A DNA stretch of 63,457 nt from Azospirillum sp. B506. Lineage in GTDB: Bacteria > Pseudomonadota > Alphaproteobacteria > Azospirillales > Azospirillaceae. The notes beneath the pieces were generated by a model. It worked only from the letters and a program-made list of their open reading frames with translations, made no database searches and was not told the origin of the DNA. A program made the position numbers and the translations under genes. This document shows positions 12,408-38,956 of the stretch, one piece after another; positions within the stretch are counted from its first letter, which is position 1, and each line of letters starts with the position of its first letter. The stretch covers positions 1 through 63,457 of the forward strand of contig NZ_BADK01000023.1 of the NCBI RefSeq assembly GCF_000333595.1. The letters run 5' to 3'.

Positions 12408-13839
12408 GGTCGTGCCCCACGAGGTGGTGTAGGAGCTGTGGGGAACCGGCCCGCCGCAGCGCCCCCTGAGCTGGCGTAGGCGGGCCGGTTGTCCACAGCG
12501 GGGCGGTCATCGTGGTTCTTCGGTAGAGTCTGGTCACCACACCTCAACCCGATCGAAGGGTGACCACGATGACCGACGAGATGATGGCGCTTCGCGCGCT
12601 GCTGGAGAAGCGTCCTGACGCCGACGTGCTGCGCGAGATGATCGGCTTCGCAGCCGAGCGGCTGATGGAGCTGGAGGTGCAGGGCCTGACCGGCGCTGCC
12701 CACGGCGAGCGCTCCGCCGAGCGGCTGGTCCAGCGCAACGGCTACCGGGAGCGCGACTGGGAAACCCGCGCCGGCACCGTCGAACTGCGCATCCCCAAGC
12801 TGCGCAAGGGCAGCTACTTCCCCGGTTTCCTGGAGCCACGCCGGATGGCCGAGAAGGCGCTGACCGCCGTGATCCAGGAAGCCTACATCCACGGCATTTC
12901 GACACGCTCGGTGGATGATCTGGTCAAGGCGCTCGGCATGGGCGGCATCTCCAAGAGCCAGGTCAGCCGGCTGTGCGAAGAGATCGACGAGCGGGTGAAG
13001 ACCTTCCTGGAGCGTCCCATCGAAGGCGATTGGCCCTACCTGTGGATCGACGCCACTTACGTGAAAGTCCGCCAGAACGGGCGCATCGTCTCGGTCGCCG
13101 TGACCATCGCGGTGGCCGTGAACACCGACGGACGGCGCGAGGTGCTGGGCATGGACATCGGCGCCTCGGAGGCCGAGACCTTCTGGATCGAGTTCCTGCG
13201 CAAGCTGAAGCGTCGCGGGCTGGCCGGGGTGAAGCTGGTCATCTCTGACGCCCACGAAGGCATCAAGTCGGCGGTATCCAAGGTGTTCCGCGCCACATGG
13301 CAGCGCTGCCGGGTGCATTTCATGCGAAACGCCCTGGCGCACGCCGGTCGGAGCGGCCGGCGTGTGGTGTCGGCCTTCATCGCCACCGCGTTCGCCCAGG
13401 ATGACGCTGGCGCTGCCAAGGCGCAGTGGCGTCAGGTCGCCGATCAGGTCCGCCCCAAGCTGCCCAAGCTGGCCGCCCTGCTCGACGAGGCTGAGGAGGA
13501 CGTGCTGGCTTTCATGACCTTTCCCAAGGAGCACCGCGCCAAGATCCACAGCACGAACCCGCTGGAGCGGCTAAACGGCGAGATCAAGAGGCGCACCGAG
13601 GTCATCGGCATCTTTCCCAATGAGGCGGCGATCACCCGCCTGATCGGTGCCATCCTGCTCGAACAGAACGATGAATGGGCGGTTCAGCGGGCGCGCTACA
13701 TGACTCTGGAAACCATCGCTCCGCTGCGCGATGATCTCGCCCTCACGTTGCCCGCTGCGGCCGCGTGACCGTCCCGGCCAGACCTGCCGGAGACCACATG
13801 AGCGCCCCGCGATCCTACACCACGCCTCGGGACACGATC
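12408..13839 (+). mobile_element. Complete IS256-family insertion sequence, 1432 bp
   Basis: Imperfect 27-bp terminal inverted repeats at 12408-12434 and 13813-13839 share GTGGTGTAGGA at their inner ends. An 8-bp direct duplication (CCGGCGAT) flanks them. The element carries one intact transposase and is inserted into the IS5 transposase gene. An exact duplication and intact ORF suggest a recent insertion. Confidence 0.88.
12560..13768 (+). CDS. IS256-family (Mutator-type) transposase
   Basis: 402 residues from a GTG at 12560; the ATG at 12569 is three codons later. It has an N-terminal DNA-binding part, then the Mutator DDE core: D164 in WIDATY, D230 in VISDAHEG and a glutamate in [13 protein letters not shown] (E336 or E341). 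The motif 'CRVHFMRN' (C/H motif) between the last two is typical. Full-length and without frameshifts, so probably active. It catalyses transposition of the surrounding element. Confidence 0.93.
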
Positions 13840-20081: not shown

Positions 20082-21464
20082 TTACCCTTTCCCTTTCCCT
20101 CGCCGCACCCGAGCCACCGCGCCTCGTGTTGCCCGTAGGCGCTCGGTGTAACGGGCCGGCATCACCGGCGACGTCCACCGCCCCGCCTGCATTAGTCCGG
20201 GCAGATCGACGCCGGCGGCCAGCAGGTCCTGAGCGGCGCCGACGCGCAGGGAATGCCCGCTGAAGCCGACGGCGAGTGGGTTCGCTTCGCCAGTACGCCG
20301 TTCCACCACGCGGCGCACCGCCGCCGGGCTCATCCGTTCGCCGACGCCACTGCGCGACAGGTGGCAGAACAGAAAAGCCCCGCCCCGGGTGTTCGGCCCC
20401 TCCCCGTCCGCGTCGGCCGGCCACCGCGGCGCCACCGCGCGCCAGGCAGCGAGCGCTGCCACGGTTTCAGCGGACAGCCAAGCCTCGGCACCTTGCCCTT
20501 CTTGGTCGGTTTTGGAGCGGCGGATGCGGATGGTCGCCTCTCCCGGCTGCGCATCCGGGTTTAGGGCAAGATCGACCGGGTGGAGATCCTCCCAACGTAG
20601 CGCCACCAGCTCGTTGGCGCGTGCCAGGGTGTCGCGGCCGACCAGCAGCAGCGCGCGGTCGCGGAGGTCGATGGGCTTCAGCGGTTTCGGCCGGTCGGGC
20701 TGGGCCGGATCGAGCCGATCGAGGATGGGGGCCAGCACGGCGTCGGTCAGGGCGGCCGCCTGTCGCCGCTCGGAGCCCACCTCGCGCGCATGCCCGCGCC
20801 GTTCCAGCGTCACGCTCCAGTGCCGGCAGGGGTCGGTGTGGCCGGCGGCGCGGTGGATCAGGCTGATCGACGCAAGATAGCGCGCGATGGTCGCCGGCTT
20901 GCGGGCCTTGCCGATCGTCTGGATGTACCGCCGCACCGTCTCCGGCTCGGCCGGCAGCCAGGACAGCCCCTGCTGTCCGCACCAGCCAGCAAACAGCCGA
21001 ACGTCGGCCTCGGTGGCGCGCAGGGTCGCCTTGGCATAGCCGCGCTGGGCAACGTCCATGAAGCCGCGCAGCGCGGCCATGGCGGCATCGGTGAGGGTGG
21101 TCGCGGGCACCGGCACGGCCATGGCCGACCGGGCGCACGGATTGGCGAAGCCGCCGGCGGCATGCCACCAGGCGAGCGAGCTGCGGTAGCGGCGTACGGT
21201 GCTGTCCTTGCGGCCGGCGGCGCGGGCGGCGGTAAGAAATGCCTGTACCGTACCCGGCGACGCCGGCAGCGCACCCAAACCGGCTTGGGCGCACCAGCGC
21301 ACGAAGGTCCGCCCGTCACCGAGCAGCGCCCGCCGGGTTGCCACGGCCATAGGCCCGGTGATGGCGACGCGCAGGCTCTCCACGATCTCGGGACTCAGCG
21401 AGGGCAGGAAAGCGAAGGGAATAGCCACTGCGGTAGCGGATGGAAGAGTGGTGGTTTTCGCCAT
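20082..21464 (-). CDS. Tyrosine recombinase/integrase with two N-terminal SAM-like domains
   Basis: 460 residues from ATG 21464 (MAKTTTLPSATAV), only 2 bp after the KAP-ATPase stop, so translation is coupled. Two core-binding segments (about 25-110 and 130-215) precede the catalytic domain. Visible active-site residues are R282 (ARANELVAL), K318 (SKTD), H404 and R407 (GHSLRVG), W430 and the nucleophile Y439 (ARYTE). The protein should cut and rejoin specific DNA sites. It is not beside a tRNA or recognisable att site. Being second in an operon with a KAP ATPase suggests a dedicated partner rather than a simple integrase. Confidence 0.85.
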   Translation of the reverse strand: MAKTTTLPSATAVAIPFAFLPSLSPEIVESLRVAITGPMAVATRRALLGDGRTFVRWCAQAGLGALPASPGTVQAFLTAARAAGRKDSTVRRYRSSLAWWHAAGGFANPCARSAMAVPVPATTLTDAAMAALRGFMDVAQRGYAKATLRATEADVRLFAGWCGQQGLSWLPAEPETVRRYIQTIGKARKPATIARYLASISLIHRAAGHTDPCRHWSVTLERRGHAREVGSERRQAAALTDAVLAPILDRLDPAQPDRPKPLKPIDLRDRALLLVGRDTLARANELVALRWEDLHPVDLALNPDAQPGEATIRIRRSKTDQEGQGAEAWLSAETVAALAAWRAVAPRWPADADGEGPNTRGGAFLFCHLSRSGVGERMSPAAVRRVVERRTGEANPLAVGFSGHSLRVGAAQDLLAAGVDLPGLMQAGRWTSPVMPARYTERLRATRGAVARVRRGKGKG

Positions 21465-21466
21465 CG

Positions 21467-23605
21467 TCAGAACCGCCGGCAGTTCAAGGCCGACCATCGG
21501 GCGTTCCCGGCTCGACCAGCCCACGCAGGATCGGCGTCCGCAACCGCCGCTAGACGCTCTTGCAGCAGAGCAGCATCCAAGAAGGTGTTGACGTGTGCGA
21601 ACCCCATCATGCCATAGCCGAACAGCAGGAGCGTGACGGTGCGGAGCGCGCCATCGTCGACGCGAACACGCTCTGTCAGACCGGCACGACAATCTTCGCT
21701 CCACTGGTCCAGGTTGTGCGTCAAGAACAAGGGCTCGGGGGTATAAACGGCTGACAGCAGGGTCCCAGCTTTCCAGTGGGCCAGCACGACCTTGGCCAAC
21801 TCGCCGGCTAGATGCTTGACAGTCTCAGGCGACAGCCACGCGTCGTTGATGTCTTGCTGCTTGTCCCCGAACAGGCCGAGCGCAGAACCTTGATGGCGCA
21901 GCACCGTCGCTACGGCGTCGAGATGGCCGTCTGCCAGCAGTGTGGTCAGCACGCGTGCTCCGAGTTCGATGGGCACGCCGCACCGTTTCACCGCCTGATG
22001 CAGAAGCTCAATGAACCAGAGACAGCGCGCATGGCATTCGCCGCTGTGCTCCGGCGTGGCGGCATCGATGTCTCGGGAAATGCGACCGAGAATCCGAAGG
22101 GTCCGCTCGGGGGCGGGGTCCGCGATTTCCCGGTAGACATCCTGCAGCCGGTCAAGGAAGGGGCCGAGGGTCTGTTCGGCGGAGCGTGCCTGAAGCTGTA
22201 TCAGCATGCTGCCCTCGTCGCCGGCCAGGAAGCGTGTGATTTCATGGCGGGATACGGCACCGGGCAGCAGGCCGAGGCGCAGCACCGTCATCAGTGTGCG
22301 ATGCCGGCCCAGACTGTCGGCGATGTCCGGGAGGGGCGCCGCGCCAGTCGTGCGCAACCGTGGAAACAGAAGCGCCAGCAGGTGGGCCAGCGGCGTTTCG
22401 GCTTCGACGCCCAAATCGGCCAGCCGCCGGTCTGGACCGGCCCGCTCCTGTTCGGAGAAGGCGACCCAATCTATGTCCGCCTCCCGGTCAACCGGAGCAT
22501 CACGCACCACTAGGCGCGGCTTGCGGCGGATCGCCTCGACAACGGCCGGAGCCTTGGCCAGCAGAATGCAATAGCCCAGCAGGTCCAGCCAATCGACTTC
22601 ACCGACGACCATCGGCGCCAGCACGGCGTACATGCCGCACACCCGTCGGCTGTCGCGCGGCGTGGTCAGCAGGCCATCGGTGGCGATTGCGAGCAGACGC
22701 GTCCAGCGCGGATCGGAGCGCCAGCCATCCGGGCGAACACCGGACGGCACCGCAGCCTCGAACTCCGTCGTGAAGAGGCCCTGCGTCTCGGACCTTACGG
22801 CGACGGGCAGGGGAATCTCCAACTGGACGATCTTCTCCAGATAGGCAGCCCCGCGCTCCGAATTTTTGTCGCCAAGGGCCTCGATCACCCGGCTCCGGTC
22901 GTAGGCAAGCAGGTAGGAAATGCCCGGAAAGTCGGCGACGGCACGCACGAGCTGGGCGACGGCACGGACCTCGGCGTCCTCGACCCGGTCGAGTTCGTCG
23001 ATCAGGACGACAATCGGCACGTCGACGCCGGTCAGCATGTCGGCCAGTTCCCGATGCTGCGCCGCCAGGGACCGGTCGCGGGTCAGCAAAGTCTCGGCCA
23101 CCCTGACAGCCCCTGCCGCGGCCATGCCGACGCCGGGCACCACGCTGAACAGGCCGGCGGCCGGCGCGAGATCCTTGGCATAGCCGGCCAGCTTGGCGCC
23201 CAGGTCGCGCAGCATATCGCCATGCCGGCCGTTGGCGGTGCCCACCATGGTGATCGTCGCCAGCAGCTCGGCAAAGAATTGGGTGATCACGTCGTCGCGG
23301 CCCGACACCAGCCAGGGATCGAAGCGCACCACCACCGCAGCCGGATGCTGCCGTTCGATCTCCGCCTGCAGCAGGTTGAGCAGAGACGACTTGCCGCTGC
23401 CCCAGGGACCAGTGAGGCCGACCACGACACCGCTGGCTCGGCCATCCGAGGTGACCAGGGCGCGGGCGAGGCGGGCGACGAAGCCGTCGCGCCCGAGGCG
23501 GTCGTCGGCGGGAGACTTAATCGGGCGGTCGGGGCGGTGGTTCACAGCGGCCTCGGGCGGGAAAACGACGCCGTCCAAGCTAGCCGAGCCAATCGCGGCG
23601 GGCAA
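21467..23605 (-). CDS. KAP-family P-loop NTPase
   Basis: About 712 residues from TTG 23605; a GTG at 23545 giving MNHRPDRPIKSP is an equally good start. Walker A GPWGSGKS (66-73), FDPWLVSG, and Walker B 'VVLIDELDR' (about 199-207) define a KAP ATPase. A hydrophobic insertion at ~148-170 (PAAGLFSVVPGVGMAAAGAV) sits between them, as in KAP proteins whose P-loop domain is split by membrane segments. The ~350-residue C-terminal part is helical and unrecognised. KAP NTPases are linked to membrane-associated or defence roles. The gene is first of a two-gene operon with a tyrosine recombinase. Confidence 0.8.
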   Translation of the reverse strand: MPAAIGSASLDGVVFPPEAAVNHRPDRPIKSPADDRLGRDGFVARLARALVTSDGRASGVVVGLTGPWGSGKSSLLNLLQAEIERQHPAAVVVRFDPWLVSGRDDVITQFFAELLATITMVGTANGRHGDMLRDLGAKLAGYAKDLAPAAGLFSVVPGVGMAAAGAVRVAETLLTRDRSLAAQHRELADMLTGVDVPIVVLIDELDRVEDAEVRAVAQLVRAVADFPGISYLLAYDRSRVIEALGDKNSERGAAYLEKIVQLEIPLPVAVRSETQGLFTTEFEAAVPSGVRPDGWRSDPRWTRLLAIATDGLLTTPRDSRRVCGMYAVLAPMVVGEVDWLDLLGYCILLAKAPAVVEAIRRKPRLVVRDAPVDREADIDWVAFSEQERAGPDRRLADLGVEAETPLAHLLALLFPRLRTTGAAPLPDIADSLGRHRTLMTVLRLGLLPGAVSRHEITRFLAGDEGSMLIQLQARSAEQTLGPFLDRLQDVYREIADPAPERTLRILGRISRDIDAATPEHSGECHARCLWFIELLHQAVKRCGVPIELGARVLTTLLADGHLDAVATVLRHQGSALGLFGDKQQDINDAWLSPETVKHLAGELAKVVLAHWKAGTLLSAVYTPEPLFLTHNLDQWSEDCRAGLTERVRVDDGALRTVTLLLFGYGMMGFAHVNTFLDAALLQERLAAVADADPAWAGRAGNARWSALNCRRF

Positions 23606-28911: not shown

Positions 28912-29346
28912 TCAGCGCCGCCGCAGATCCTGGAGGTCGATGTCGTCGATCCGGAAGCCGGCCTGTCGCAGCGCCTTCAGCACGATCACCTTCTGGGCGG
29001 TGCCTTCGCGTGCGGCGGCCTGCCGCAACTCCTCCACCAGGTAATCCGGCAGCATCGCCTGCCACGGCCGGGTCGGCGCCGGGCGGACGATGGCGGTCGC
29101 CGGTGCCGGCTGTGGCTGCGGAGCGGGCTGGAACGTGGGTTGGTGGACTGCGGCATGGGAGATGCCTGGTTGGGGCGGCGCAGGCGGCTCCGTTTCGGTC
29201 GGCAGGAAGCCCTTGCTCAATCCATATTGGCGGATCGGATCGACGTCATCCGTGCCCAGCCCGCCGATCCCGATCCCGCCCAGCGGAGGACGGGCCGGCT
29301 TGGCGACGGCTTTCAAAGGAGGCTTGGCGTGGCTGTCGGTCGACAT
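28912..29346 (-). CDS. Pro/Gln-rich protein with C-terminal ribbon-helix-helix-like domain (ParB/VirC2-like)
   Basis: 144 residues from ATG 29346 (MSTDSHAKPPLK). The first ~95 residues are low-complexity and Pro/Gln-rich (PTFQPAPQPQPAP). The last ~45 (MLPDYLVEELRQAAAREG, then TAQKVIVLKALRQAGFRI) match a ribbon-helix-helix: a beta strand and two helices. Small ParA systems of type Ib, and VirC1/VirC2, pair a short ParA with an RHH DNA-binding partner. A short ParA lies 1.9 kb away on the same strand, and TCATGA repeats lie directly upstream of this start. Partner assignment is an inference. Confidence 0.55.
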   Translation of the reverse strand: MSTDSHAKPPLKAVAKPARPPLGGIGIGGLGTDDVDPIRQYGLSKGFLPTETEPPAPPQPGISHAAVHQPTFQPAPQPQPAPATAIVRPAPTRPWQAMLPDYLVEELRQAAAREGTAQKVIVLKALRQAGFRIDDIDLQDLRRR

Positions 29347-29393: not shown

Positions 29394-29412
29394 CCATGAA
29401 GCAATATCATGA
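29394..29412 (+). repeat. 19-bp direct repeat, copy 1
   Basis: CCATGAAGCAATATCATGA, identical to 29527-29545 and 48 bp upstream of the RHH-protein start. It contains a TCATGA core. Confidence 0.85.
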
Positions 29413-30351
29413 CTTGCCGTCCTGTCTTTGCGACATCTGGCGGGGGTAGGCGGCAACATGGCGGAAAGCCGGCGGGCGTGGCGTGGGAAACACAGGGGGG
29501 AAGACCGGGGAAATCGTGAGATAATACCATGAAGCAATATCATGAAATAAAGGTTATGGGATCGGCAGAGCCGGGGGAAGCCGGTTGCCGTCCTATGATG
29601 CGGTCGAGCGGACGTCTTGACTTGCGCTCGACCGTAAAGGCCGCGACTGCTTTCCCGCAGACCCATGCCTGGGAAAGAAAGCAACCCGGCGGTCTCGTCC
29701 ACCGACTGAGGGCGGGCGTAAAGCCTGATGATAGGAGAGATCATTTCATGGCATGAAGTCATGGCATATAAATAAATATAAAATCATGATATGATAAATG
29801 GGGACTGATTCGCGGATGGCGCTTTCGCCCTTCCGTCTTGACCGAACTGGAAGGCGTTCGTCCCTTCCGGTTTTCCAACTTTGGGGACGCGACGTAAGGG
29901 GCGATAGGTGGGGAAGAGCATCGTCCAGTCTTTCCAAGCTTCAAGTCGGAAGCCATCCGTTCCTCACATGACATGGAATCATGATTAATGTTGATAAAGA
30001 CATGTCATATTTTATTGGGTCCGTGCACGTCGAGGAACAGGCAGGCCGGCGCCACTTACGGTCGGAATGGTCCGGATGACCGGCTCACGCAATCCGGCTG
30101 CCGTCTCCCTGGCCCGATTACGCAGCCACTTATGGTTCTGCTGTGTCGGACATGCGCAAATGATTGCAGCATGAACATTGCTGGAGAGGGTGGACGGGTA
30201 TTTTGACGATGCACAGGCGGGGGATGAGTTCGGGATCAGGCGCTCATGGCGATGACGGACTCCACGCGACCACCGGCTCGATGCTGCTGCGTTCACCTGA
30301 GAAGGGGCAACCTGGGACAATTGGCACGAGACGGTGCTCGATGCGGTATAT
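29413..30351. other. AT-rich non-coding region
   Basis: About 940 bp lacking a supported gene. It includes TCATGA sites, the second 19-bp repeat, and an AT-rich core at 29741-29800 (TCATTTCATGGCATGAAG and AAATCATGATATGATAAA). 29985-30020 is also AT-rich. The composition suits an origin or partition site. Confidence 0.5.
29527..29545 (+). repeat. 19-bp direct repeat, copy 2
   Basis: CCATGAAGCAATATCATGA, identical to 29394-29412, 133 bp away. Confidence 0.85.
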
Positions 30352-31005
30352 TTAGGGTTTTCTCAATAGCACTTGAATTTCTGGAATGCCGCCGATCAGA
30401 AAGCAAAGTAACAAATCCGTGATTCTGTGTGATTTATTCAGTATCCTGTCAATGATTTCCGAAAATAATCTTCTCCTTTTATTAAATTTATCGATGCTTC
30501 CAGAATAAGCTCCAATGCTTATCAGTTCCATCATCGGGAGATATGGGTTTTTTCCATGGGTTAAGCTATAAAATGCATTGAGACCATAAAGAGTGTGATG
30601 CTCCCATCCGGTTCCCTGAATGCTGCTTTGGTGTGGGACACGAATGAAAAGCAACCCTTCACGTTTCAAGCTTCTAAAGATGGAGTTAATCACGCGATCG
30701 CGATCTTGAGCATACAGATGCTCAATCACATGACTGGCGTAGATAAAGTCAAACTCCTCATCTTTGAACGGCCATTCATGGACAAAATCGCATACGATGG
30801 TCTGTGAAGTGGTGTGGTCAAAATCAACGGTAACGATTTGGTCATTGGCGCGCCCCTCGAATGGGTTTTCGCCTGCCCCGACATCCAATATACGCAGGGG
30901 CTGTTCAGGAAAAATTTCAATCAACTCGTCATGCGTCCACGACCTCTTATACAAAGGGATTCTGTAACATTCGGGCGTCCGAACGGATTGGAGTCGGAAA
31001 CTCAT
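30352..31005 (-). CDS. Class I SAM-dependent methyltransferase, low GC
   Basis: 217 residues from ATG 31005, preceded by AAGGGGAAATC. Motif I is ILDVGAGENPF, motif II-like 'IVTVDFDH', then 'FDFIYASHVIEHL' and 'LFIRVPH', the usual order of Methyltransf_11-type enzymes. The substrate is unknown; location in a glycan island suggests sugar methylation. Base composition is clearly more AT-rich than all neighbours, so it looks transferred. A TCATGA motif (31002-31007) overlaps the start codon, which may place it under the same DNA-binding protein. Confidence 0.75.
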   Translation of the reverse strand: MSFRLQSVRTPECYRIPLYKRSWTHDELIEIFPEQPLRILDVGAGENPFEGRANDQIVTVDFDHTTSQTIVCDFVHEWPFKDEEFDFIYASHVIEHLYAQDRDRVINSIFRSLKREGLLFIRVPHQSSIQGTGWEHHTLYGLNAFYSLTHGKNPYLPMMELISIGAYSGSIDKFNKRRRLFSEIIDRILNKSHRITDLLLCFLIGGIPEIQVLLRKP

Positions 31006-31163
31006 GATTTCCCCTTGCAGCACTGTCGCCAATACCGTGTTTGTATCCGACATGGGATTGGCATACCCAGGCTTTTGATGCCGGATTGGAAAAGTCGCAA
31101 TGGGCAAAAGCCATGGGCCGATGCCCTGAGCGTTGCGATCAGGACGATCATCCGGCGCGACAC

Positions 31164-31226
31164 AATATCATGAAATCATGATAAAAAATCTTTCTAAAAA
31201 ATCATGATTAAATATCATGAAATCAT
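31164..31226. repeat. Four-TCATGA array 3' of parA
   Basis: AATATCATGAAATCAT occurs at 31164-31179 and again at 31211-31226, with two further TCATGA cores (31176, 31202) and an A/T-rich spacer between them. It lies immediately after the parA stop. Confidence 0.8.
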
Positions 31227-31231
31227 TTTCC

Positions 31232-31909
31232 TCATCTTCGCGGGATCAGCGGATTGGCCGGGGAGGAGTCCAGAAAGGCGACGAACTCGTCGGTCAGGGC
31301 GCGGACGTTCTTGTCGGCGTTGCTGTCGGGATTGACTTCGCCCGGGCCGTGGCCGGTGTAGGTCATCTCCTTCAGCAGAGAGCGCTCGATCAGTTCGGTG
31401 CGGAAGGCCGGGACGCCATGTTCGTCCAGCAGGCTGCGGGCGTGGCGGTCGACGCGGGATTCGATGGCGGCCTGGGTGCGGACGATCACCACGCTTGAGG
31501 CCGGGGTGTGTTTCAGCACGCCGACGGAATCCGCCACCACCTTGAAGGTGCGCACCGTCTCCTTCACGTCCATGAAGGACTGCTGGGTCGGGATCAGCAC
31601 CCCGTCGCTGACCGAGAAGGCGTAGAGCATGGTCAGGTTGCCGAAACCGGCAAGGTCGATCAGCGTGTAGTCGAAGCTCGGTGCATTCTCCTGCACCGTC
31701 TGGCGGACGTTCGATTCCGTGATCTCATCCAGCACCCGCACCCCGGCATCGTTGCGCCGCCGCGCCCATTCAGCCAGATGCCGGTTGGGGTCGCAGTCGA
31801 GCAGAAGCACGCTCGCCTCGCGCCGGCGCAGTTCGGAGGTGAGCGCCATGACCAGACTGGTCTTGCCGACGCCGCCCTTGGTGGAGGCGAAACTGATGAT
31901 CCGAGCCAT
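31232..31909 (-). CDS. parA: Small ParA-family partition ATPase (VirC1-like)
   Basis: 225 residues. A deviant Walker A at the N-terminus (ASTKGGVGKTSL, with both signature lysines), 'LLLDCDPN' (A'), and 'YTLIDLAGFG' (B) define the ParA/MinD superfamily. It lacks an N-terminal HTH, so it is of the short Ib or VirC1 class. Such ATPases move plasmids or relaxosomes on the nucleoid together with a small DNA-binding partner. The best partner candidate here is the RHH protein at 28912-29346; TCATGA motifs flank the gene on both sides. A MinD-like role in surface-machine positioning is also possible. Confidence 0.75.
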   Translation of the reverse strand: MARIISFASTKGGVGKTSLVMALTSELRRREASVLLLDCDPNRHLAEWARRRNDAGVRVLDEITESNVRQTVQENAPSFDYTLIDLAGFGNLTMLYAFSVSDGVLIPTQQSFMDVKETVRTFKVVADSVGVLKHTPASSVVIVRTQAAIESRVDRHARSLLDEHGVPAFRTELIERSLLKEMTYTGHGPGEVNPDSNADKNVRALTDEFVAFLDSSPANPLIPRR

Positions 31910-32249
31910 GCGGTGGTTCCCGGTTGCGGAGAATGGAATGCGGGCTGACCCGAGCGGGAGCTTCGCGGATTTACACGCAAGATCAGGAAAGATGGAAGTG
32001 GTTTCACGTCATGAAGAAGAAGAATGAAATCATGACATTGAAATAGGGTATGATACCGTGGCTCGTGAATGGAGAGGCCGGGGCGGCGATGCCTCCGTCT
32101 CCCGGCACTTGTCAGCCCGGGCGTCGCCATGGCATAGCCACCCGGTCCAGCCGGCGGCAAGCGGTGCCATGTCCGAACCGGCCGCCGCCTCTCCGTGAAT
32201 TCCTTATCAATTCATCCCGTTCATCTATCCCGTCGCCAGGACCCGCCGC
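31910..32249. other. Divergent intergenic region of parA and GT17 gene
   Basis: 340 bp. Two TCATGA motifs at 32009 and 32030 lie about 100-120 bp upstream of parA, probably in or near its promoter. No ORF is supported. Confidence 0.5.
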
Positions 32250-36916: not shown

Positions 36917-38563
36917 CTATCCGGCGGCGCGTTTGCGGAGCGCGCGTTCGAGGCTGTCGAGGGTGTCGTCCCAGTGCTGTGGCCTGGACTGCCGGAAGAG
37001 GCGCATGGTCGGGTACCAGGGGCTGTCGTCTCGGTCGAGCATCCATCGCCAGTCTGGGGCGAAGGGGACGAGGACCCAGACCGGCACGCCGAGCGCGCCG
37101 GCGAGATGGGCGACGGATGTGTCGACGCAGACCACCAGATCGAGGTTTGCCATGATGGCGGCTGTGTCGGCGAAATCCTTGATTTCCGGGGACAGGTTCA
37201 GCAGCGGGAAGCCGCCGGGCGGGTTTTCCGCCTGGCCTTCGGTCGGCCCCTTCTGGATGGAGACCAGGGTGACGCCGGGGATCGCGGCCAGCCGGGCGAA
37301 GGGGGCCAGCCCGATGGAGCGGTTCCGGTCGTTGCCGTGGGTGGGCGATCCGGCCCAGACGATGCCCACCTTCAGTCCGCCCCCGCCCCCGCCCCCGGCC
37401 CCGCCCCCGGCCCCGCCTTGTGCCGGAGCCGTCAGCCGCTCGCCCCAGTGCGCCACCAGTTCCGGCTCCGCCGACAGGTAGGGAACACGGGACGGCACGG
37501 TCTCCAGCCGGGTGCCGAACAGCGCCGGCAGGCTCATCACCGGGATCTGGACGTCGAAGTCGGGCAGCGGCTCACCGGTCGGCGCCAGGGTGACGCCGGA
37601 CAGGCCGCGCAGCGCCGGCAGCAACGGACGCTGGCATTCGAAGATGACCGGCTGTCCGTCGGCCATCTGCGACAGCAGCGGCAGGTAGCGCACGAACTGC
37701 AGCACGTCGCCGAATCCCTGTTCCCAATAGACCAGCAGCCGCCGTCCCCGCAGCGGCGATCCGTCCCAGCGCGGCTTGGTGAAGCTGCGCTGCGGCGAGG
37801 GCAGCTGACCATGCTTCCAGCGCCATTCGTAGCCCTGCCAGCCCCTGACGAAATCTCCCAGCAGAAGCCGGAGCAGGGAGTCGTTCCAGTGGGCGCCGGC
37901 GAAATCCGGAACCAGCCTCGTGGCCCGGCGGAATGCCAGCAACGCCTGCCAGAAGATGGCCCTGTCCTTCAGCGTGGAGCCCAGATTGCTGTAGGCCCCG
38001 CTGTGCTGCGGGTTCAGCGCGATCGCCCGGCGGAAGCAGCGCGTGGCCTCTTCCAGCCGCCGGTCGTTGCGCAGCATGGCGCCGAGGTTGTTGGCGTATT
38101 CGGCCTCCATCGGGTCGAGTTCCACCGCGCGGGCGAAGGCCCTGCACGCCTCGTCCGGGCGTTTCAGCCCATCCAGAAGAAGGCCCAGCTCGTTGAGCAC
38201 CGCGGGATCGTCGGGCCTGAGCTTCGCCGAGATCCGGTAGATCCGGGCAGCATCGGCGCGCCGGTCGAGCCGGGTCAGCAGCGATGCCAGATTGTTCCAG
38301 CTATTCAGCGACCCTGGCACCAGCGCCAATGCCCGCCGCAGCAGGGCGACCGCCGCCTCGTTCCGGCCGGCCGCGGCATGCAGAAGCCCCAGGTTGTTGA
38401 TCGCGGGCGCGAAGTACGGATCATGGGCGGCGATCTGTGCATACAGCCGCCCGGCCTCTTCGGAAAGGCCGGCTTTCTGGAGGCCGACCGCCGTCGTGAA
38501 GGCTTGTTCGATGTTCATGGAGGCCGCGGCGCTTCGGGTGGGGGACGGCGGGATCAGTAGCAT
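36917..38563 (-). CDS. TPR protein with GT9-like glycosyltransferase domain
   Basis: 548 residues from ATG 38563, preceded by CAGGAGCGGCC; ATG 38518 (MNIEQAFTTAVGLQ) is the alternative. About six TPR units (residues ~20-235; APAINNLGLLHAAAGRNEAA, AEYANNLGAMLRNDRRLEEA) precede the transferase domain: 'YWEQGFGDVLQFVRYLPLL', 'VGIVWAGSPTHGND' and DLVVCVDTSVAHLAGALG, ending 'SPWYPTMRLFRQSRPQHWDD'. A Gly-rich run encoded by a GC hexamer repeat lies just before 'LKVGIVWAG'. Closely related in design to the genes at 25566 and 27328. Confidence 0.75.
   Translation of the reverse strand: MLLIPPSPTRSAAASMNIEQAFTTAVGLQKAGLSEEAGRLYAQIAAHDPYFAPAINNLGLLHAAAGRNEAAVALLRRALALVPGSLNSWNNLASLLTRLDRRADAARIYRISAKLRPDDPAVLNELGLLLDGLKRPDEACRAFARAVELDPMEAEYANNLGAMLRNDRRLEEATRCFRRAIALNPQHSGAYSNLGSTLKDRAIFWQALLAFRRATRLVPDFAGAHWNDSLLRLLLGDFVRGWQGYEWRWKHGQLPSPQRSFTKPRWDGSPLRGRRLLVYWEQGFGDVLQFVRYLPLLSQMADGQPVIFECQRPLLPALRGLSGVTLAPTGEPLPDFDVQIPVMSLPALFGTRLETVPSRVPYLSAEPELVAHWGERLTAPAQGGAGGGAGGGGGGGLKVGIVWAGSPTHGNDRNRSIGLAPFARLAAIPGVTLVSIQKGPTEGQAENPPGGFPLLNLSPEIKDFADTAAIMANLDLVVCVDTSVAHLAGALGVPVWVLVPFAPDWRWMLDRDDSPWYPTMRLFRQSRPQHWDDTLDSLERALRKRAAG
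37377..37417 (-). repeat. GC-rich hexanucleotide-like repeat in coding DNA
   Basis: On the plus strand, CCGCCC and CCGGCC units alternate through 37377-37417; the coding strand has at least six runs of four or five G, encoding Ala/Gly. Six-base steps keep frame, and the G runs could form quadruplex DNA. Confidence 0.75.
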
Positions 38564-38956
38564 GAAGATGGCCGCTCCTGCAAAGCACGGCCCCTGGGAA
38601 CGGCCCTTGGGAACGGTCCCTGCGATTTTCCCCGTGAACCGTTTCCTTCCGCGTGATGTCTGTTGCATCGCCCTCCCCGCCTCCGCATCAATGGCGCTCG
38701 TCGAACGGGGAGCGTGGCGGGCGGCATGGCGCGGTTTCTGCTGGAATGCCACGCCGGACGGTGCCAGCCCTGCTGCCGGAAGCGATTGTGTCCGCCACGC
38801 CCGATCTCCCATTTATCGACGCATCCCGCGGGAGGATCGCGCAATGCGCGCAACTGGGCCAGCCGCCCGGACGGGGTAGCGATTTCACGTCACGCCGGCA
38901 TGCCGTTCTGACAGACTGGCTGTGAAGCCGCCCCGCCGGACAGGATCCTCGCCGCG
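38564..38956. other. Intergenic, no supported gene
   Basis: About 390 bp upstream of the TPR-glycosyltransferase. The only pattern is a short direct repeat CCTGGGAACGG / CTTGGGAACGG near 38593-38617. Confidence 0.4.

Follow-up and report, generated by a model that had tools for sequence, protein, structure and literature searches.

Type Ib partition systems couple a ParA of 192-308 amino acids with a centromere-binding partner of 46-131 amino acids (PMC3235114). In the delta/omega system of pSM19035 the two genes are transcribed from separate promoters, each with a parS overlapping it (PMC5016525; PMC9499535); parS is built of 7-base-pair (bp) WATCACW heptads, at least four of them contiguous being needed for full activation of the ATPase (PMC9499535). 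The ParF/ParG/parH system of TP228 has a partner with a flexible N-terminal tail, and a centromere, with repeats parted by AT-rich DNA, that sits upstream of the operon (PMC5016525), whilst parCAB of the Myxococcus plasmid pMF1 joins a type Ib ParA to a third gene, parC, with ParB-binding iterons that surround the par genes and also occur further along the plasmid (PMC3235114). Here, we describe a locus of Azospirillum sp. B506 that can be set beside these systems: a parA gene, a gene for a ribbon-helix-helix (RHH)-like partner and a dense array of the palindrome TCATGA, all lying within a stretch of 63,457 nucleotides that we refer to as ‘the window’ (contig C1120 of a 7.24-Mb draft genome in 1142 contigs). 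We propose, with a probability of roughly 85% and on the strength of sequence comparison, that the array serves as centromere and operators for a type Ib-like par module, belonging to a low-copy RepA-type Azospirillum plasmid of ~0.3 Mb. The elements are arranged as follows, with sites and clusters given without strand.

28912..29346, minus strand: gene for the RHH-like partner, 144 amino acids from an MSTD start common to most relatives
29394..29425: site cluster of CCATGA, TCATGA and TCCTGT in 13-bp steps, just upstream of the MSTD start
29514..29545: site cluster of TCGTGA, CCATGA and TCATGA in 13-bp steps, with the second copy of a 19-bp repeat inside it
29784..29797: TCATGA site, accompanied at +8 by a degenerate copy
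29966..30010: phased cluster around TCATGA 29979, with copies at -13, -8, +13, +21 and +26
30352..31107, minus strand: class I S-adenosylmethionine methyltransferase open reading frame (ORF; Pfam Methyltransf_23; 44.7% GC), between the par genes
31168..31228: main cluster, downstream of parA, with TCATGA at 31168, 31176, 31202 and 31215 and TCATTT at 31223, in steps of 8, 26, 13 and 8 bp
31232..31909, minus strand: parA, encoding a 225-amino-acid Walker ATPase (KGGVGKT) without an N-terminal DNA-binding domain
31983..32035: cluster upstream of parA, with TCATGA at 32009 and 32030, 21 bp apart, and degenerate copies at 31983, 32004 and 32022

A preliminary description of this DNA had reported eleven TCATGA motifs between 29394 and 32035, and all eleven are exact (29407, 29540, 29784, 29979, 31002, 31168, 31176, 31202, 31215, 32009 and 32030). 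The same is true of the two 19-bp direct repeats that precede the RHH gene (29394-29412 and 29527-29545), and of the four-copy cluster 3' of parA and the two copies upstream, as laid out above. The background, however, had been under-counted: where fewer than one to about one copy per 10 kb had been expected, and some four isolated copies noticed elsewhere, shuffling gives a mean of 12.7 per 63 kb (about two per 10 kb), and a further ten copies are present in the window. The cluster nevertheless stands, as 2000 dinucleotide shuffles of 29394-32035 averaged 1.33 TCATGA and never exceeded seven. An AT-rich context, thought to be common to the motifs, surrounds some copies and not every one; the extended pattern AWATCATGAWW has seven matches at six distinct sites here and four elsewhere in the draft genome, in which a reversed-pattern control finds none. 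The copy at 31002 falls inside the methyltransferase ORF and is without a phased neighbour. Scans for promoters and terminators returned no excess over shuffles.

The ATPase encoded by parA has the size and domain make-up of a type Ib ParA, with its Walker motif near residue 10, and its best sequence matches in the PDB are 5u1g (ParA) and 4dzz (ParF). Against the NCBIfam model NF041546 (ParA_partition) it scores 121 bits over residues 4-208, the curated cut-off being 180. Earlier, the logic of the locus had been likened to that of type Ib partition and of VirC1/VirC2 alike; it is the partition family that fits ParA better, VirC1 scoring 58 bits.

ParA and its partner travel as a unit. Among 45 Azospirillum genomes, a ParA of at least 77% identity occurs in 21 (77-99% in the 20 other than this one), and the partner (E<=4.4e-28) is found in exactly those 21. 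Counting duplicate records, 27 loci were examined, and the two genes are linked in 26, with identical strand in 26/26; at the 27th (G016) ParA is on another contig. The gap between the genes is ~0.12-0.26 kb in a divergent clade (ParA 77-87%) and 0.8-3.5 kb in a close clade (ParA at least 94%). The close relatives of the pair are from Azospirillum, namely the six plasmid records with a ParA of at least 80%, 6/6 plasmid records for the RHH gene, and 13/13 genome loci.

What lies between the genes is variable. The preliminary description saw the pair as split by a foreign methyltransferase, which is so in this strain; at the corresponding place in the six complete plasmids that carry the pair no methyltransferase is annotated, and the spacer on annotated plasmids is either empty of annotation or occupied by an IS630 transposase or by TPR or hypothetical genes. 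Given this turnover, the methyltransferase is a strain-specific occupant of the spacer and stands outside the par system. The TPR and glycosyltransferase genes that surround the pair are indeed present here, as had been noted, but flank it on annotated plasmids as well, such that glycan surroundings are usual for the pair and not the non-standard arrangement they had been taken for.

The partner gene stays open beyond its MSTD start up to an ATG at 29397 (161 amino acids). Across 13 sequences the C-terminal 50 amino acids of the protein are almost invariant; the middle is variable and proline-rich, and there is a conserved N-terminal block around IRQYGLSKGFLPTE. Its length is 144 amino acids here and 115 in strain TSA2s. 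The C-terminus can be aligned with that of distant paralogues, where it reads as strand-helix-helix, and we regard the partner as probably an RHH protein; ‘probably’ only, because the profile matches considered below are weak and the structural model poor.

The array is conserved along with the genes. In 21 of the 26 loci (five duplicate records, L055, L057, L058, L068 and L069, having been dropped) we count 164 TCATGA around the pair as against a shuffle mean of 10.7 and maximum of 21, with the motif present in 21/21, and by z-score against dinucleotide shuffles it ranks first of all hexamers with at least 25 occurrences. In 16/18 close-clade loci (duplicates included) positions -126 and -105 relative to parA are occupied by cores, to within 1 bp, and a copy stands just before the RHH gene in the window and in L044-L047. 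For the flanking-base and lag analyses L060 was also left out (its site positions are identical to those of L046), giving 20 loci; over 131 unique sites, C precedes the core in 1% and G follows it in 2%.

The spacing of TCATGA is quantised. With a phased copy defined as at least four of the six TCATGA letters, and with L046 and L067 left out in addition (18 loci), 335/1096 of the slots that lie 8, 13, 21 or 26 bp away from an exact site hold a copy, as compared to 284/6576 at all remaining offsets between 7 and 34 bp; the chosen offsets score higher in each of the 18 loci, and in the window alone the figures are 24/88 and 24/528. As the four offsets were picked after viewing the lag analysis, and adjacent exact sites enter the count once from each end, these numbers describe the phasing and do not amount to a test of it. 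Similarly, the summed counts for the divergent loci B510, TSA2s, L064, L065 and L066 alone (37/128 versus 32/768) are not a held-out test, since these loci were in the data from which the offsets were chosen. The two basic steps may have a simple helical meaning: 8 and 13 bp are 10.5 minus and plus 2.5 bp, so that neighbouring dimers would be turned through some -86 or +86 degrees, roughly a quarter turn either way, whilst 8+13 makes 21 bp, or two helical turns, and a return to the same face.

The pair is found on six complete plasmids of 262-352 kb (B510, 4B, TSH100, TSA2s, A. oryzae and A. ramasamyi), all typed as rep_cluster_1806. The preliminary description had suggested looking for a replication gene near this locus on the full replicon; a RepA is encoded on all six, with 99.7-100% amino-acid and 92-97% nucleotide identity. 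This RepA (314 amino acids; L070:733-1677, L076-L082) differs between species by 3-8% in nucleotides, and ParA by up to 17% in protein; the near-invariance of the RepA protein despite that nucleotide difference points to strong purifying selection on the initiator. A RepA of at least 94% is encoded in 22 genomes, 20 of which have the focal pair. On five of the six plasmids there is no ParB_N (PF02195) match, and the only other AAA_31 matches on those five are ORFs of 779 and 814 amino acids. The sixth, that of TSA2s, encodes a further ParA and a ParB_N protein near a second RepA (51%; L048 (p2), record 154-159 kb), this ParB being ~12 kb from the focal ParA and adjoining the other one; the plasmid looks like a cointegrate with a fused second replicon. 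In the B506 genome itself ParB_N matches are on other contigs only, and in none of these cases does a ParB_N gene sit next to the focal ParA, as it would in a repABC or helix-turn-helix parABS locus.

Paralogous ParA-RHH pairs, one on contig C975 of the same genome and nine at other Azospirillum loci (L083-L092 in all), resemble the focal pair in having a related ParA (30-36%) and RHH C-terminus, the RHH gene after parA and an array before parA; they differ in that the genes are close together and the array, which keeps within 130 bp of parA, repeats a different sequence with a period of 8 bp. At lags 8 and 16 the DNA 30-130 bp upstream of parA has a mean self-identity of 0.40, and at lag 24 of 0.36, as against 0.22-0.28 at other lags from 4 to 23, and the lag-8 value is at least 0.34 in 10/10 loci. 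We view the paralogous array as a simpler version of the focal one. In 3/10 of these loci RepA lies within ~0.4 kb of the pair; RepA was scanned for directly at four loci, three of them chosen for a known nearby RepA, and the fraction counts all ten. In one relative of the focal pair itself (G029), too, a RepA gene (49%) is directly beside it.

Taken together, a ParA of the partition family, an RHH-like gene and a repeat array that travel with it, the closeness of the short repeats to linked par genes as in type Ib systems, and the lack of ParB_N on 5/6 plasmids support the partition reading that the preliminary description had offered; the link to RepA plasmids, with RepA adjacent in G029 and at three paralogous loci, fits the plasmid's own partition module. 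We suggest that the partner would act as a dimer, with its RHH domain at the C-terminus and a long, flexible tail at the N-terminus, and that the dimer would bind palindromic TCATGA together with degenerate neighbours at 8- and 13-bp spacing in three places: before the RHH gene, before parA and on the downstream side of parA. The bound sites may then serve both as partition complex and as a means of repressing the two genes, with the partner's tail touching the nucleoid-bound ParA ATPase so as to provoke ATP hydrolysis, and plasmid copies would be pulled apart over the nucleoid before division, as in the type Ib systems delta/omega and ParF/ParG.

A number of observations weigh against this proposal. 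Site binding, the RHH fold, repression, ATPase stimulation and plasmid stability are all things that we infer. For the fold in particular, Pfam RHH_5 matches the partner weakly (E 0.18), AlphaFold2 with the partner and 12 relatives gave a poor model (mean predicted local distance difference test score 58.8), and Foldseek with that model returned 14 matches, the best at E 4.6 and none of them an RHH protein. A profile of the partner plus paralogue groups (A2) placed EndoAI, an antitoxin that we take to be an RHH protein, at the top of its PDB matches with a non-significant E of 0.063; profile A1 found nothing relevant in the PDB, and omega is absent from the partner's PDB profile matches. By fold over flanking DNA, TCATGA is fourth (14-fold), after the AT-rich ATGAAA, AATCAT and AAATCA, and divergent-clade loci have two to five exact sites each. 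On the B510 plasmid, TCATGA sites with at least two phased partners number 4/9 in the 230-239 kb region and 5/9 far off, and the control hexamer TGATCA, though it has four of six letters in common with TCATGA, gives 8/90; a plasmid-wide scan thus does not cleanly separate the par region. As regards the host replicon, RepA in the B506 genome is on contig C654, apart from the par contig, and two genomes (G011 and G026) have a RepA of 95-96% without the focal pair. Both have a paralogous ParA-RHH pair in its place, which in G011 shares a contig with RepA (C6 75053-88957); this looks like replacement of the partition module on one plasmid backbone. The focal pair is present in just one (G023) of 20 further genomes whose RepA reaches 85-91% at best, such that the pair follows one branch of the RepA plasmid and not all of it.

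The alternative that fares best, which we nonetheless consider unlikely, is that the sites are operators only, through which the RHH protein represses parA, its own gene and nearby glycan genes, with ParA doing something other than DNA partition. Sites do stand before both genes, more of them occur elsewhere on the plasmids (some near glycan genes on B510 and TSA2s), and type Ib RHH proteins are repressors as well (PMC5016525); but the largest cluster is downstream of parA, ParA best fits a partition family, 5/6 plasmids are without ParB_N, and RepA adjoins three of the ten paralogous pairs. Less probable still is an iteron-type replication origin. Short phased repeats in AT-rich DNA would suit one, as would the adjacent RepA gene in a single divergent relative, yet the seven stretches of 3.5-4.5 kb around RepA that we inspected have just one or two copies of TCATGA apiece, and the array tracks the ParA-RHH pair. 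The replication locus entertained in the preliminary description is likewise not supported for this stretch, with RepA on contig C654 here and 24-118 kb from parA (by coordinates) on the six complete plasmids, though G029 does have a RepA gene adjacent to the pair. An accessory locus for DNA transfer, of the VirC1/VirC2 overdrive type, seems equally remote: among Pfam families ParA matches VirC1 best, at 58 bits, but the NCBIfam VirC1 equivalog gives 58.1 bits against a cut-off of 313, whilst the partition model gives 121 bits, and of the host plasmids 4/6 are typed as non-mobilizable and 2/6 as mobilizable. That an AT-rich hexamer has merely clustered by chance in intergenic DNA of low GC, for which one might cite the non-coding GC of 40-60% here as compared with 67% for the island, is contradicted by the shuffle maxima (seven versus 11 locally, 21 versus 164 over 21 loci) and the quantised spacing.

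Viewed as a partition module, the system is a variant within the type Ib-like group, and it is the layout of its sites that is unusual. It shares with pSM19035 a small ParA and a partner, here a probable RHH protein, transcribed apart, with several site clusters that, in pSM19035, overlap promoters (PMC9499535; PMC5016525), but has a 6-bp palindrome in 8/13-bp steps in place of contiguous, non-palindromic 7-bp repeats, and a spacer between the genes of up to ~3.5 kb with other genes inside. With TP228 it has in common the match of its ParA to ParF, a partner with a flexible N-terminal tail and repeats set in AT-rich DNA; unlike the TP228 centromere, upstream of its operon (PMC5016525), the sites here lie on both sides of parA and the genes are apart. 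The likeness to pMF1 lies in a type Ib ParA and in sites spread around the par genes and beyond, whereas pMF1 has parC and a different, AGATGTCT-like iteron (PMC3235114). ParA/ParB of the Agrobacterium plasmid pTAR, also an alphaproteobacterial plasmid system, is named as a type Ib representative in the same paper (PMC3235114). Among the papers listed by a literature search on TCATGA in plasmid partition, none is about a partition site, judging by titles and the opening of abstracts, and no paper was found that unites VirC1, VirC2, ribbon-helix-helix and overdrive.

We tentatively speculate, at somewhat less than even odds, that this amounts to a distinct centromere architecture, in which RHH dimers on palindromic TCATGA, in 8/13-bp steps, form clusters dispersed over up to ~5 kb, within a module that has been opened by swappable glycan and insertion genes and yet stays linked. 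If so, the geometry of the segrosome would be unlike that of contiguous 7- or 8-bp arrays, and the spacing poses the question of how an RHH partition complex assembles on non-contiguous palindromic sites; given that pSM19035 needs at least four contiguous heptads, a working dispersed array would be informative. That other genes fill the spacer suggests that opening up a par module need not break its linkage. More broadly, the proposed reading puts a name to a segregation system, and to a binding-site code, for Azospirillum plasmids that bear surface-glycan genes.

Some features of the assembly bear on the rest of the window. The DNA from 23623 to 38743 matches G030:C7 (TSH100 p1) and G020:C16 (A. 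lipoferum Sp59b), whilst most of that from 38744 on matches a different, 912-kb contig of G030. Contig C957 of the same draft is identical at 1-326 to 38418-38743 and then continues as the plasmid's intact glycosyltransferase gene; no repeat or insertion sequence could be seen by eye in the 140 bp around 38743/38744. The simplest reading is probably a mis-join at that point, although the junction may be a real duplication; movement of the island to another replicon was set aside in favour of the mis-join, with C957 continuing the plasmid. The par locus is unaffected, but statements about the glycan island beyond 38.7 kb are, as a result of the probable mis-join, unsafe from C1120. An integrase-like ORF and a 712-amino-acid NTPase-like ORF (20082-23605) border the shared plasmid DNA on its left, and further left, at 12560-13768, there is a transposase-like ORF; these names come from reading the sequence, and the ORFs are probably mobile insertions.

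Two further records carry the locus or its ParA. In Azospirillum sp. TSH64 the par locus is on a 7.5-Mb contig and again on a 143-kb contig (L116/L117), probably through assembly duplication. Finally, a 32.5-kb IMG/VR contig (L126) encodes a ParA 99% identical to that of the window and is, on that account, probably a piece of plasmid labelled as virus.

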